Shown here piece after piece: positions 1 to 5,787 of a DNA stretch of 60,051 nucleotides. The stretch's first letter is position 1. Every line of letters begins with the position of its first letter. The notes under the pieces are model-generated. The model saw nothing but the letters and a program-made list of their open reading frames with translations. It was not told where the DNA came from and ran no database searches. Source of the DNA: an uncultured Granulosicoccus sp. (GTDB taxonomy: Bacteria; Pseudomonadota; Gammaproteobacteria; Granulosicoccales; Granulosicoccaceae); assembly GCA_937991945.1 (NCBI GenBank), contig CALKLO010000021.1, positions 1 through 60,051 on the forward strand. Reading direction: 5' to 3'. Both the position numbers and the translations under genes were made by a program.

Positions 1-1118
1 GCAGCAATACGAAACGCGTGAGCGGCCATCGTGCTCAATGATTTACGTCGACCTTTTTCAAGTGAACGCATCATCTCCAAACTGGCAACGTGCACAGACT
101 CAATAGAATTAGGCGCTTCGGAAGCTACGTAATATTCCATAACAGGAAGATTGATATGCACTTCATGAACTGCTTTTCCGCGCCTGCCGGAGAGTCGTTC
201 AAGCTTGCGAGAATCATCAAGAGCATCGCGTACAGCCATCAATAATGTATTTCTTAATGGCTCACGTAACGCGTAGTGATCGACTCCATTCAATTTAAAC
301 GCAGCAATCGTTAGCTCGTAATGCTTTTTAAGCATGGGGCGTTCTGGGAATTCGCAGGAACAATCGACCCCCACTGCACTGAGCTCACTGCGCATGTCTG
401 CATCCATAAAGCTGATGACTTTATCGCCTGCAGCTCTGGCTACAAGACGTAAACGACTCGCTTGGATAGCCGCAATAGCGGTGGCTATTTCAGGTGTCGG
501 CGGCTCAGGTATTTCTAGCTCGCCGGTGACAGCCTCATTGAAAGCCAACAGGTAGTCATTAATAGCCACGACCAATTTAGCCACCGAATCGCCAAACCAA
601 GTAAACACATACGTGCTGTCTACAATTTCGTTGTCTTCAGTTGAGAAAGCCCCGTACCGATGTGCCTTGCCGTAAGAATCTTGCAGCATGGTGGCAACGA
701 TAATGTCATGCGACATGGAAGGCATGCCTTTGCCGTGTGTGCCGTACAACCGAACGCCCAATAAAATATTGGCTGACAACACAGCCTGATGGATTGTCGG
801 CTCCAACTTGGGCAGTCGGTTAGTGTTGATTAGCTGCTCTCGGCCTGCCCCTCTAATATCGAGCTCGGCCGGACAGATTGTTTCTGGGTCAATATCCTGG
901 TTGGAGAAAAACTCGGTCGCTAGGATGTCTCTACCGCGCTGTGTTTCAAACAAGCGCTCGGGCAGCGAGGACAGAGGCACGAAGTGCTCTACCTCCTTGG
1001 CAATCCAGTTGCGTGACAAGGTGCCCGCAATTACGCGCTCCATATCAGAGGTTCCGGCAAGAACACCGTAGGCTCTGACGAGCTTGACTAAATCCGTGAG
1101 CGGGTATGAGCGCGCCAC
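1..1118 (-). CDS. Unrecognised protein, partial (runs off left edge)
   Basis: An open frame on the minus strand runs without a stop from just after the histidine kinase gene to the left edge, about 370 codons. It is therefore a real gene whose C-terminus lies outside the window. I chose the GTG at 1118 (reads M-A-R-S-Y-P-L-T-D), preceded by GGAA with a 9-base gap; a GTG at 1169 in the same frame is the alternative. The product looks soluble, with no signal peptide or membrane segment. It contains G-T-H-G-K-G-M-P-S-M-S-H near the middle and an R-R-G-K-containing basic stretch later. I do not recognise the family. It lies 3' of the response regulator and kinase on the same strand, so it may be part of that operon. 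Confidence 0.7.
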   Translation of the reverse strand, partial: MARSYPLTDLVKLVRAYGVLAGTSDMERVIAGTLSRNWIAKEVEHFVPLSSLPERLFETQRGRDILATEFFSNQDIDPETICPAELDIRGAGREQLINTNRLPKLEPTIHQAVLSANILLGVRLYGTHGKGMPSMSHDIIVATMLQDSYGKAHRYGAFSTEDNEIVDSTYVFTWFGDSVAKLVVAINDYLLAFNEAVTGELEIPEPPTPEIATAIAAIQASRLRLVARAAGDKVISFMDADMRSELSAVGVDCSCEFPERPMLKKHYELTIAAFKLNGVDHYALREPLRNTLLMAVRDALDDSRKLERLSGRRGKAVHEVHINLPVMEYYVASEAPNSIESVHVASLEMMRSLEKGRRKSLSTMAAHAFRIA

Positions 1119-1254
1119 AATGACAATTTCCAGTGAATGAATCTGACTAGTCTTAGAGGATAGCAACACATCGACCGAATGAAATGTAACTTTCAGTGAC
1201 CAGCTGAACCGTAATGTTTCATCGGCGTGTCTAAGCCCTAAACGCTCGACCCCG

Positions 1255-3423
1255 TCACCCTTTTTTCACGGCGGGTAATTGAACTTCAAAGTGACTGCCT
1301 TGCATTGCCTCCGAGTGGACTCGAATGTCGCCTCCAGATCTGCGTACGATGCCGTAGCTTACCGAGAGACCTAAGCCCGTGCCTTGTACCTTTCCATGCG
1401 TAAAAAATGGATCAAAAACGCGCGGCAAATGCTCACGCTCAATACCACAGCCCGAATCTCTAACCGATACAACGACATGGCGCTCATCCATATCGTAGGT
1501 ACTGATATCGATGTGCTGAACCTCTTCCAGCGAAACTCCTGCATTGCCAAGGTCGTTGTTTTTTTGACGAATAGCGTCCGTTGCATTGGTAATCAAGTTA
1601 ACCAACACCTGCTGTAATTCTTGGCGATCGATGAGCGCTAAACGCGACGCTGAGTAAGACTGGCTGACGTCAATGGATTGCCCTTCAAATTCATGCAGCA
1701 ACATGCGCAAGGTATCGTCAACAACCGAATCCAAATCAACTGGCGCAATCGGGGACTGCTCGTAGTCCATCTGCATTGGGCTAATGTCGGAGCGAATACC
1801 TCCACTTGAAAGTTTCGCGTCGCCCCCCTGTACTTCAGATCTGGAATATTGTAGAAGCCTGTCTGTAATAGAGCGAATACGATAAACCTGCTCAATAATA
1901 AGGTCGATTTCTGTTTGCACGTTTTCTCGGGAGTCGCCAAGGTCGGCAACTAATACGTCCATGTTGCCCAAAATGACGGCTGTCGGATTATTGATTTCAT
2001 GAGCCACCCCTGCCGTTAGCTCACCCAATGCTGCCAACTTTTCCGCATTCGCCAATTGCTGGCGTGTCTGGTGTAGTAAATCAATCGAATCGTGAAGGCG
2101 CTGATTTTGCGTCTCTAGTTCAGCGGTACGATGCTGCACCTTATCTTCCAGAACAGCGGCATCGTGCTCTATGCGCTCACGGTGTGATTCGAGCGTATCC
2201 AACATGGCATCGAACTGTAACGCCAACTCACCAATTTCATTGGGCGAGGATATGGGACCAATGCGCTCGTGTTGGCCAGCAGCTGTTGCGCGTACCACGG
2301 ATGTCATTGTCTCGATTGGCGTGAATATAGATCGAGCTCCCATTATGGCCGCACCGACTGCTAACAAACTGCCCCCTAAAACCAGAGCGGAAAGCACCGC
2401 AATGGCTTTAATGAGCTCGGCTCGGAAAGGCGCCTCGAGGTAACCGGCGTATAACATTCCAACCCGTTGCCCCGCGACATCGAGGATGGGTTCATACGCT
2501 GAAATGTACCAGTCGTTCACAACAAAAGCCCTGTCTATCCAAGACTCACCACGTGCCAACACGGCATCCCGAACTTCTACTGACACGCGAGTACCTAGCG
2601 CTCGAGATTCATCTCGTTTGGGCACGTTGGTGGTTATTCGAACATCTTCAAGAAATACCGTAACGGTGCCTCGACTGCCTGGCGCAAGGCTGCCGGGGCC
2701 ATAAACCAAGTCTCGAATTTCGTCTACAAATTCGAAGTTTCGATTTAACAACAGCCCGCCCTCAAGAATGGCTATGCGTTCGTTAAGGTTGTTAAACACC
2801 GGTTGAAGCGTTCTGATAATCATCGCTCTGTCTTCTGCGACGCGACTACTCGGTGCAGCACGAGCGGTGGCCACTAATGGCAGTATGACCTTCGAAGCCA
2901 CGATGTGAGGCTCACGCTGCCAATCGATGGCCACGTATATCTCAATACCGGTCATGCCCGATGGCGAAATAGTTTGTTCAGATGCCATCAACTGATCAGT
3001 CAGCGGTGACTGTCTAATACTGTGTGATGCCCACCCATCCGCTTCCAGTATTTGCCCTCCATTGGCCGAGAGTAGTTTGACGAAATCGAAGTTGTACGCT
3101 GATCGATAGCTATCGAGTAGTTGGCTTAATGCCTTAGCGTTTTGTGTCGTTAACAACTCAGACATTTGCGAGCTAGTGGCTAACGCTGACAGAATTTGTT
3201 GGCCATCTTTTTGTATGCGCTGGAAGCTTTCACCTGCAACACGAAGGTCTGTATTAACCTTGGTAAATAACTGCTCGTAGGTGTAGTCCGTTGACCATCT
3301 GGATGCTAACAACACCACCGTCCCTGTCAGCAGTAGCAGCGGCACCAACACCAAGGCAAGCAAGCGATATCGTAAATTCGAAAACCGTTTGAGGAAAAGC
3401 TTGGCTTGGGTTTTTTGAGTCAC
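1255..3423 (-). CDS. Cache/HAMP sensor histidine kinase
   Basis: A membrane sensor kinase of 722 residues. TM helix 1 spans about 18-42, a periplasmic Cache-like sensing region about 45-335, TM2 about 338-362, then HAMP to about 415 and a coiled coil to about 465. The HisKA H-box AGVAHEINNPTA puts the phospho-His near 475. The HATPase domain has N-box NLITNATDAI, G1 DSGCGI and G2 GTGLGLS, so every catalytic motif is intact. The region near 525-560 is a hydrophilic insertion between HisKA and HATPase. The response regulator gene ends 17 bases upstream on the same strand, so the two form a pair with the regulator transcribed first. The ligand is unknown; Cache domains of this type usually bind small organic acids or amino acids. 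Confidence 0.9.
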   Translation of the reverse strand: MTQKTQAKLFLKRFSNLRYRLLALVLVPLLLLTGTVVLLASRWSTDYTYEQLFTKVNTDLRVAGESFQRIQKDGQQILSALATSSQMSELLTTQNAKALSQLLDSYRSAYNFDFVKLLSANGGQILEADGWASHSIRQSPLTDQLMASEQTISPSGMTGIEIYVAIDWQREPHIVASKVILPLVATARAAPSSRVAEDRAMIIRTLQPVFNNLNERIAILEGGLLLNRNFEFVDEIRDLVYGPGSLAPGSRGTVTVFLEDVRITTNVPKRDESRALGTRVSVEVRDAVLARGESWIDRAFVVNDWYISAYEPILDVAGQRVGMLYAGYLEAPFRAELIKAIAVLSALVLGGSLLAVGAAIMGARSIFTPIETMTSVVRATAAGQHERIGPISSPNEIGELALQFDAMLDTLESHRERIEHDAAVLEDKVQHRTAELETQNQRLHDSIDLLHQTRQQLANAEKLAALGELTAGVAHEINNPTAVILGNMDVLVADLGDSRENVQTEIDLIIEQVYRIRSITDRLLQYSRSEVQGGDAKLSSGGIRSDISPMQMDYEQSPIAPVDLDSVVDDTLRMLLHEFEGQSIDVSQSYSASRLALIDRQELQQVLVNLITNATDAIRQKNNDLGNAGVSLEEVQHIDISTYDMDERHVVVSVRDSGCGIEREHLPRVFDPFFTHGKVQGTGLGLSVSYGIVRRSGGDIRVHSEAMQGSHFEVQLPAVKKG

Positions 3424-3440: not shown

Positions 3441-4847
3441 TTATGATGCTTCGTCAGCGCTGTGCCATAAAGTTTGTTTTCTTTCCAGCGTCTTTCGTGA
3501 CACACCCAGCAATCTTGCAGCAGCCGACTTGTTGTTGTTAACAGAATCTAGAACCAATTCAATGTGTGCTCTTTCAACAGCTTCCATTGTCCAATCTAAT
3601 GGGTAACCAGATTCATTCCATGCAGGGGTGTCAGTTGTGTTGCGCAAACTATCCATTGGCAACGATCCAAGCAACAAGGTACGTTCAATAACATTTCGTA
3701 ACTCTCGTACATTACCGGGCCATGAATATTCGTTAAGCACTTCCCAGTCTTTATGCAACAGATCTACGCACTCTAATCTCATTTCGGATGAGAGTCGCTC
3801 CATGAAATAGTTCGCTAGCAACTGTAAGTCATCGCCTCTGTCCCTCAACGGAGGAACCTTTATCGATAGCACGTTAAGCCGATAGAGCAAATCGCTGCGC
3901 AGGATACCGGACTCATCTAACGGCTCTATATTTTGGCTAGTAGCCGCAATAAGTCGAATATCAACAGGGATATCACGCCCACCCCCTACCGGTCTTACTA
4001 GTCCAGTCTCTAGACACTCTGCGAGTTTCGATTGCACTCTTTCAGGTAAACAACCTACCTCATTTAAAAATAAAGTCCCCTTGTCGGCGTGCACAAAAAG
4101 CCCATCGGCATGATGCAGTTTTGCTGTCTCACTACCGTCGGTGATACCAAACAATTCTTGCTCAAAGTCGTCTTCATTAAGACTGGCGCAGTTGAGCGAA
4201 ACGAACGAACCGCTGCGGCGACTCATTGAATGTATAGCTCGAGCAATGATGGCCATACCGGTACCCGTTTCGCCTTGGATAAGGACTGGGGATTGTATCG
4301 GTGCTGCGCGTTGCGCTAACGTCAACATTTGCTTCATGACATCGCTGCTTGCCACCAAACCACTGTCATCTTGCATCTGCTGCAACTGTAATCGCAGTAA
4401 GGAATTTTCCCTTAAAATTTGACGTCGCAAAAGCGTTCTTTGCATAGACAGCAGCATTTGCTCAGTGCGAAACGGTTTCATAATGAAATCATCTGCCCCA
4501 TTGCGCAAAGCGGCTATGGCCATTTCTAAATCAGCATAGGCCGTCATGTAGATAACGTGGGTTCGAACACCACGCTCGCGCAATTTACTCATCCAATCTA
4601 AACCCGATAACCCAGGCAATCGAATGTCCACTAACAACATGTCGAAGTGATATCGCAACCTTAAGGCCTCGGCCTCTTCAGCACTTCCAGCAACCTCTAA
4701 CAAGGCGCAGCGATTCTCTAACGCACGCTTTAAAAAGTTACGCATGCCAGGCTCATCATCAACGACCAAGATGGCCGCTGATTTCAACAAGCGATTGAAC
4801 TCAAGATCGTCGTTGACATCGTTTTTAGGATGATTAGACGACTGCAC
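3441..4847 (-). CDS. NtrC-family response regulator with degenerate AAA+ domain
   Basis: 468 residues: receiver domain (about 24-135), AAA+ domain (about 165-395) and a C-terminal Fis-type helix-turn-helix (about 430-460). The receiver is complete, with the acidic pair VDDE, the phospho-Asp in LLVDIRLPG near 74, and K in IMKPF. The AAA+ module is damaged at decisive points. Walker A reads GETGTGM, with Met replacing the invariant Lys. Walker B reads LFLNEVG, with Asn replacing Asp. The sigma54-contacting GAFTGA loop is replaced by ITDGSETAK. The DLLYRLNV and PPLRDR regions remain. It probably still binds DNA and receives phosphate from the adjacent kinase but is unlikely to hydrolyse ATP or activate sigma54 in the usual way. 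It may act as a sigma70-type regulator or repressor (inference). Confidence 0.9.
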   Translation of the reverse strand: MQSSNHPKNDVNDDLEFNRLLKSAAILVVDDEPGMRNFLKRALENRCALLEVAGSAEEAEALRLRYHFDMLLVDIRLPGLSGLDWMSKLRERGVRTHVIYMTAYADLEMAIAALRNGADDFIMKPFRTEQMLLSMQRTLLRRQILRENSLLRLQLQQMQDDSGLVASSDVMKQMLTLAQRAAPIQSPVLIQGETGTGMAIIARAIHSMSRRSGSFVSLNCASLNEDDFEQELFGITDGSETAKLHHADGLFVHADKGTLFLNEVGCLPERVQSKLAECLETGLVRPVGGGRDIPVDIRLIAATSQNIEPLDESGILRSDLLYRLNVLSIKVPPLRDRGDDLQLLANYFMERLSSEMRLECVDLLHKDWEVLNEYSWPGNVRELRNVIERTLLLGSLPMDSLRNTTDTPAWNESGYPLDWTMEAVERAHIELVLDSVNNNKSAAARLLGVSRKTLERKQTLWHSADEAS

Positions 4848-5031: not shown

Positions 5032-5787
5032 CTACTTAGCGACTTTAGAGGGTACTTTTTTCTTAGCTTGTGACGGTTTTTTAGACGATTTCTTTTTAGA
5101 TGTTTTGCGCGCATATTTAGCAGCGCCGCTGGTTCCCGCAACTTGTGCCTCTTTTAACACCGTCTTAGGTTTGTAATCGCATAGGTCACTGACCGAACAC
5201 TCAGGGCATTTCGGCGTACGAGCCAAGCAGACATAACGCCCGTGCAAGATTAACCAGTGATGGGCGTCCAGCAAGTACTCCTTGGGGACAAACTTAAGCA
5301 ACTGCTTTTCAACAATCAGCACATTTTTACCAGGCGCTAAACCTGTGCGGTTAGAGACTCTGAATATATGCGTATCCACCGCCATGGCAATATGTCGAAA
5401 CGCGGTATTCAAAACAACATTGGCTGTCTTTCGCCCTACTCCCGGCAATGCCTCTAGCGCCTCCCTGTCTTCAGGTACGCAACCATCGTGCAATGTGCAT
5501 AACCGCTCACAGGCTGCAATAACGTTTTTGGCCTTAGTGTTGAACAACCCTATTGTGCGAATGTAAGGCGTTAAGCCTTCAACACCCAGAGCGAAAATAG
5601 CCTCTGGTGTATTGGCGACAGGATACAAAAGTCGCGTTGCTTTGTTCACGCTGACATCCGTTGCTTGCGCCGACAATATGACGGCTATCAACAACTCGAA
5701 AGCATTGCTGTATTCCAGCTCAGTTTTCGGCTCAGGGTTAGCCGCTTTAAAGCGGCTGAACATAGCTTCGCGCTTGTCAGAATTCAT
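5032..5787 (-). CDS. nth: Endonuclease III (base-excision repair)
   Basis: DNA glycosylase / AP lyase that removes oxidised pyrimidines. The helix-hairpin-helix LPGVGRKTANVVLN carries the catalytic Lys, and AVDTHIFRVSNR carries the catalytic Asp. The C-terminal [4Fe-4S] ligands are C-x6-C-x2-C-x5-C (from CLARTPKC to SDLC). At 251 residues it is about 40 longer than the E. coli enzyme. The extra length is a Lys/Ser-rich tail after the cluster (about 207-251), probably an unstructured DNA-binding extension. It stands alone, with its promoter in the gap shared with the divergent gene at 6144. Confidence 0.96.
   Translation of the reverse strand: MNSDKREAMFSRFKAANPEPKTELEYSNAFELLIAVILSAQATDVSVNKATRLLYPVANTPEAIFALGVEGLTPYIRTIGLFNTKAKNVIAACERLCTLHDGCVPEDREALEALPGVGRKTANVVLNTAFRHIAMAVDTHIFRVSNRTGLAPGKNVLIVEKQLLKFVPKEYLLDAHHWLILHGRYVCLARTPKCPECSVSDLCDYKPKTVLKEAQVAGTSGAAKYARKTSKKKSSKKPSQAKKKVPSKVAK

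Follow-up and report, generated by a model that had tools for sequence, protein, structure and literature searches.

An NtrC-type response regulator with a degenerate AAA+ motor at the formate dehydrogenase locus of Granulosicoccus-like bacteria, and its probable move away from sigma54

We describe a response regulator whose receiver and DNA-binding domains are conserved and whose AAA+ motor carries substitutions in Walker A, Walker B, sensor I and the sigma54-contacting loop. The reading that we favour, with rather more confidence than doubt, is that its target promoter left sigma54 first, that the motor decayed later and that the protein would now regulate by binding DNA under the control of phosphorylation, probably in partnership with sigma70. 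The window, by which we mean the whole stretch of 60,051 nucleotides analysed, belongs to a 3.83 Mb assembly of 158 contigs from a Granulosicoccus-like member of the Gammaproteobacteria.

The regulator is read in one uninterrupted frame with no internal stops. Pfam returned Response_reg, Sigma54_activat, AAA_lid_14 and HTH_8, each above its cut-off, and the receiver (REC), AAA+ and Fis-type helix–turn–helix (HTH) architecture of sigma54-dependent enhancer-binding proteins is present (Table 1). A preliminary description had reported methionine for the Walker A lysine (GETGTGM) and asparagine for the Walker B aspartate (LFLNEVG), and both readings stand: the Met198 codon is ATG (4256–4254), with alanine next in the motif, and the Asn262 codon is AAT (4064–4062), with the Walker B Glu263 retained. 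Its statement that DGSETA replaces GAFTGA is right as to the replacement and off by one in register; the in-register hexapeptide is GSETAK (residues 238–243, 4136–4119), in a loop of normal length that still aligns a threonine at place 4 and has F, G and the final A substituted. According to the cited part of a family survey, F or Y at place 3 with T or S at place 4 marks a working loop, E at place 4 is listed in one activator and called validated, and the remaining replacements at the two places, a putative D excepted, are inactive; the window's loop, with E for F at place 3, is inactive by this rule (PMC3162934).

Sensor I reads AATSQN, its asparagine gone, and the arginine fingers R317 and R323 and the sensor-II R381 are retained. 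The roles given here to the arginine-finger, sensor-II and receiver-pocket sites are those general to the family. The predicted structure (mean pLDDT 81.4; below 50 at residues 239–245) matches AAA+ activator domains such as those of NtrC1 and PspF, with a TM-score, normalized by target length, of about 0.85, and VpsR (PDB 7v2b) and FleQ are also among the matches. From its sequence, the window's protein is predicted to lack ATP binding and sigma54 contact; since neither its loop nor its Walker residues are those of such a protein, it should not be classed as a sigma54 activator. The receiver, HTH and partner kinase are intact, as had been claimed, with their Pfam domains present and the receiver pocket residues kept.

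Table 1. Features of the regulator gene and its neighbours in the window
Feature	Position	Strand	Details
NtrC-type response regulator gene, REC + AAA+ + Fis-type HTH	3441..4847	-	468 aa, GTG start
Receiver domain, residues 24-142; pocket D30 D31 D74 T102 K124 intact	4422..4778	-	Pfam, alignment
Degenerate Walker A GETGTGMA	4251..4274	-	K198M
Loop 1 GITDGSETAKL, residues 234-244	4116..4148	-	alignment
Degenerate Walker B LFLNEVG	4053..4073	-	D262N
Sensor I residues 303-305 = TSQ; most relatives TNR	3933..3941	-	alignment
Fis-type HTH, residues 418-462, with conserved NKSAAARLLGVSRKTLERK stretch	3462..3596	-	Pfam, alignment
Partner histidine kinase: sCache_3_3, HAMP, HisKA, HATPase_c	1255..3423	-	17 bp downstream of regulator; Pfam
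~720-aa conserved gene, N-terminal part	3..1169	-	off contig end; no Pfam match in G015 orthologue
Upstream same-strand neighbour of regulator	5032..5787	-	adjoins regulator in 12 clade genomes

Orthologues were compared across genome group g1 (n=27), hereafter the genus, where the regulator was detected in 22 genomes and not in five. The sister species G015 (82% identical) has the same K-to-M and D-to-N changes and a wrecked loop, ASTTSK; its shared losses make a sequencing error very unlikely, an explanation that we set aside. GAFTGA is kept in none of the 12 members of the window's clade (support 100/100), in which place 4 of the loop is A in four members and E in three, is missing from three and is T in the window's regulator and G015, these last two having E or T at place 3. 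The sensor-I asparagine is absent from 11 of the 12 (G013 keeps it) and present in all 15 other orthologues compared. The window's regulator and G015 have lost both K and D, G007 and G019 have lost D, and the catalytic glutamate has become aspartate in G026, G007, G019 and G013. Among the 22 genus orthologues, the cited loop rule (PMC3162934) finds a working loop in six (G002, G010, G014, G017, G020 and G025) and a non-working one in 13, the other three (G011, G018 and G024, all in the window's clade) having GAFEGA.

Outside the genus, all 19 orthologues examined (best matches) carry an undamaged GA[FY]TGA together with K and D, and the motifs are undamaged at five more distant loci too. Fewest-changes counts on a motif-free tree of 26 rows are four for the loop (five if GAFEGA is taken as working), three for Walker A/B and one for sensor I; G019, truncated where its contig ends, was left out of these counts and of the branch-length analysis, and the distant regulators G050, G046 and G043 entered the first tree only. 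It had been proposed that homologues with normal motifs would mark the loss as a one-off: such homologues do exist, but the loss is common to the sister species and is repeated and graded within the genus. At three non-genus loci (L246, L249 and L252, in G293, G242 and G102), K, D and GAFTGA are kept, the receiver phospho-aspartate is absent and the search for a kinase gene next to the regulator gave no match, a decay in the opposite direction. Apart from these orthologues, a second response regulator of the window's own genome, beside a kinase gene (L005:1024-2394, minus strand; G000:C25), presumably NtrX-like by its context, has GESGSGR, no GAFTGA and LFLTDVE, and a third (L006:1087-2415, plus strand; G000:C47), with a kinase directly upstream, has GERGTER, LVLRHPE and a degenerate loop.

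Branch lengths computed by domain on a fixed topology, in changes per site, place the acceleration in the motor: for the window's regulator with G015 they are 0.09 for REC, 0.14 for the HTH and 0.81 for AAA+, an AAA+/REC ratio of 9.0 that rests on few receiver changes. The ratio is 5.3 for G026 with G007, and 1.27 (G025 with G002), 0.82 (G017) and 0.59 (G028) where T/S loops are present; it is high despite intact K and D in G005 (5.4), cladeA1 (3.0), G001 (8.0) and G006 (6.0). In G013 it is only 1.9, because the receiver there is fast as well. This genome lacks the kinase gene between the regulator and the next gene (L166:3355-7249) and has a decayed receiver pocket (D30G, K124T) with a conserved HTH, and the joint loss of kinase and pocket residues points to use by the kinase as the probable reason why other receivers stay conserved. 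Omega is about 0.02 (REC), 0.08 (AAA+) and 0.03 (HTH) in the five most degenerate rows and about 0.01, 0.04 and 0.01 in 11 rows outside the clade (K and D present, mixed loops), values reliable for order of magnitude only because synonymous change (dS) is saturated. Even at that resolution, the low omega of the degenerate rows and the intact frame rule against a pseudogene. A receiver and HTH that stay constrained while the motor decays also lend inferential backing to the earlier suggestion of a repurposed, phosphorylation-dependent and sigma54-independent regulator.

These rates bear on a less constructive reading, in which sigma54 promoters have been lost, the two-component system is nearly useless and the whole is on its way out, motor first. 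Motor decay in several lineages, the five of 27 genomes in which the regulator was undetected and the loss in G013 of both its kinase and some of its receiver pocket would all agree with it. We nevertheless consider it unlikely, since the regulator frame and kinase are intact, the receiver and HTH evolve slowly in the window's regulator and G015 with omega far below 1, and three of the five genomes without a regulator also show no FDH-operon DUF3305 gene (one of them only 74% complete), this gene being seen in the other two.

The window's contig stops within a gene for a protein of ~720 aa, and contig C51 (L178) of the same assembly opens inside that gene; an HTH-PBP regulator and fdhD come next, and then a divergent operon made up of DUF3305, DUF3306, 4Fe-4S, TorD-like and formate dehydrogenase (FDH) genes. 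FdhD, DUF3305 and DUF3306 were assigned by Pfam on the G015 copies; the FDH subunits and the TorD-like gene are presumed from sequence likeness. The order regulator–kinase–FDH locus is the same in sister genomes, and the DUF3305 gene was seen in 21 of the 22 genus genomes with a regulator, the contig of G014 ending at fdhD. Among 18 non-genus loci, FDH-type or tup/mob genes lie near the regulator in 14, with FDH-type genes in 12 (ten family codes), and neither was found near the other four (G031, and G034, G178 and G287 on short contigs). The window's regulator and kinase belong to the FDH locus, as in other gammaproteobacterial families. A stop reported in the G026 kinase was discounted, as the only stops read in its frame fall outside that gene, ahead of its start and past its end. 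The ~720-aa protein (L149:5514-7688 in another copy) lies between the kinase and fdhD, is conserved in many genus genomes and contains an HD-like HDVVED stretch; the product of the gene upstream of the regulator resembles endonuclease III.

The likely target promoter was recognized through a palindrome, at best TGCGACA-N3-TGTCGCA, first found between fdhD and DUF3305 in the genus. Genus FDH and tupA regions were scanned with a matrix of outgroup sites that were picked by eye after the genus palindrome was already known, and the weights of the sigma54 matrix were set by us. The 24 FDH regions comprise 21 genus genomes with the regulator (all but G010), two without it and G028. The palindrome scores at least 14 in 22 of them (the exceptions being G005 with 7.3 and G022 with 10.1), and a sigma54 match of at least 12 lies downstream of it in none, the best reaching 10.2 in G023, where a match of 13.1 is located upstream of the palindrome. 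In the window's own genome the best sigma54 match is 3.4 of 19.3 at the presumed FDH target and 5.9 at tupA. A conserved element, AATAGT, stands 99–103 bp past the palindrome centre in 16 of the 24 regions, and in G002 too when measured from its other copy; a TTCAAC-like sequence 17 bp before AATAGT was read by eye in some clade genomes. Further conserved stretches near fdhD, at L178:3030-3160 and equivalents in clade genomes, include GACTCTTAAAGTC and one containing TGACTT.

At tupA, none of the 26 genus regions has a palindrome of at least 10, and a sigma54 match of at least 12 occurs only in G007 and G019. The six genus members with T/S loops have no such sigma54 match at the five FDH regions available or at their six tupA regions, and the idea that tupA is the target preserving GAFTGA in these members was rejected on the missing palindrome. 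A first scan around the regulator in the genus, at a threshold of 13, gave no convincing sigma54 sites. The palindrome is significant in only three of the 26 regions upstream of the regulator's own gene and was rejected as an autoregulatory site; a search for its exact pattern in 12 genomes was uninformative (five sites in four genomes vs four for the reversed control).

Outside the genus, regions were chosen because they precede tupA or FDH genes; 17 were scanned first and 14 entered the matrix test, those left out being a G242 tupA fragment, G154 Fer4 and the G131 fdhD side (best sigma54 matches 2.7, 7.1 and 8.0). Scanned with a 17-copy genus matrix, the fairer direction, 12 of the 14 contain TGGGWCA-N3-TGWCCCA-like palindromes scoring at least 6.3 (background 0.08 per 400 bp at a score of at least 6), seven of these 12 with a second copy of at least 3.8. 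A sigma54 -24/-12 match of at least 12 of 19.3 occurs in nine of the 14 (background 0.036 per 400 bp), and in 11 of the 12 with a palindrome, from genomes with an intact orthologue, the -12 of the top sigma54 match follows the palindrome at a distance of 61–164 bp. The earlier suggestion of sigma54 independence gains from this comparison, in that the likely target promoter lacks an element that many related loci carry.

The palindrome might instead belong to another factor, the regulator acting elsewhere and still without sigma54. G008 and G016 (92% and 88% complete) keep DUF3305 and the palindrome with regulator and kinase undetected, so that another factor may bind there or the assemblies may miss the regulator gene, and the rarity of the site at the regulator's own promoter points the same way. 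For the reading that we favour, G008 and G016 are the chief evidence to the contrary. Also weighing against it are G260 and G140, which have an intact regulator yet neither palindrome nor sigma54 element before DUF3305, the upstream sigma54 match in G023, the T/S loops kept by six genus members, GAFEGA in three clade members and the high AAA+/REC ratios seen with intact K and D. We judge a separate factor improbable all the same, given the placement of the palindrome ahead of the sigma54 match in the 11 non-genus tupA and FDH regions, and because the neighbouring HTH-PBP regulator, the alternative candidate, was not found in G008.

The favoured sequence of events, promoter first and motor later, may be set out as follows. 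Elsewhere in the Gammaproteobacteria the orthologue, which has the look of a conventional sigma54 activator, would keep its ancestral role at FDH and tungstate-uptake (tup) operons. Within the genus, the presumed regulator site, mostly about 102 bp ahead of AATAGT, is retained at the FDH promoter, with no -24/-12 element to be seen there and no palindrome at tupA. Since even members with an intact loop seem to have no sigma54 element at these promoters, the change in the promoter probably preceded that in the motor; with no sigma54 promoter to serve any more, selection on the motor would have relaxed, the window's clade losing sensor I and the loop, and some lineages, including the window's, the Walker residues. 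The kinase would still phosphorylate D74 and thereby govern how the regulator oligomerizes and binds DNA; once bound, the regulator would control FDH transcription by sigma70 RNA polymerase with no ATP hydrolysis. Activation of FDH is slightly favoured over repression, as the spacing between palindrome and AATAGT is nearly fixed. On a fuller trajectory our confidence is evenly balanced: a sigma54 response regulator would have become an ATP-independent phospho-regulator of sigma70 type, losing the promoter element first, with the enhancer palindrome kept, then sensor I and the loop and then the ATPase, the stages being still represented by sister species and the opposite loss, of kinase and receiver, occurring elsewhere in the orthologue family.

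What the retained parts of the AAA+ domain are for admits two other answers. The pocket may have come to bind another nucleotide or a second messenger (e.g. c-di-GMP, as in VpsR and FleQ) that drives oligomerization, to which the kept fold, arginine fingers and sensor II, the still low AAA+ omega and the structural matches to VpsR and FleQ would be suited; pocket and loop vary between sublineages of the clade, however, three members having lost the loop by deletion, a pattern more suggestive of relaxation than of a site newly acquired in common, and we regard such a pocket as quite improbable. The mixed rings proposed in the preliminary description, by which the protein would act as a dominant-negative subunit poisoning other sigma54 activators, found no support and are barely credible: fold and fingers are retained and the genome holds rpoN and activators with intact motifs, but its other listed activators share 35–40% identity across the matched stretch, deletions have removed the loop region from some clade members and a pure poison would have no need of a conserved HTH.

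Regulators that lack GAFTGA and work with sigma70 are established (PMC3162934, PMC10274813), and the window's protein, which has the intact receiver and HTH without GAFTGA of sigma70-acting NtrC-type regulators, is of this known kind. Closest in outline is NtrC of Caulobacter, likewise an NtrC-type response regulator without GAFTGA, for which the cited text indicates sigma70-dependent promoters and a phosphorylation site that matters; it needs the Walker A lysine and Walker B aspartate for growth on ammonium, whereas both are substituted here (PMC10274813). NtrC of Rhodobacter capsulatus also lacks GAFTGA, is reported to activate with sigma70 and requires phosphorylation, but differs in its essential ATP binding, larger loop deletion and role in nitrogen control (PMC10274813). 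VpsR of Vibrio cholerae has no intact GAFTGA and acts at sigma70 promoters, reportedly free of ATP; it binds c-di-GMP and does not require phosphorylation (PMC10274813, PMC10714721, PMC3162934), whereas the receiver of the window's regulator looks in use. HupR, TyrR and DhaR, relatives of sigma54 activators with loop changes, are described as sigma70-dependent; they serve other regulons, and the survey text cited describes no graded series within a genus (PMC3162934). What is new here is that loop, lysine and aspartate are all lost while the two-component input stays intact, that the locus is one for FDH and that a series of intermediates survives. Among the top matches listed from open-licence papers, we found nothing on a two-component regulator of this FDH/tungstate locus and nothing on Granulosicoccus regulators.

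For annotation, domain matches alone would mislabel 13 of the 22 genus orthologues as sigma54 activators if the survey's loop rule, as cited, is applied (PMC3162934). Escape from sigma54 has so far been described, in the sources cited, as separate end points, namely HupR, TyrR and the NtrC proteins of Caulobacter and Rhodobacter. In the present case a single orthologue within one genus supplies the intermediates, nearly all genomes contain the likely target promoter and the outgroups show what is presumably the ancestral state, which together make it testable whether promoter or activator changed first.
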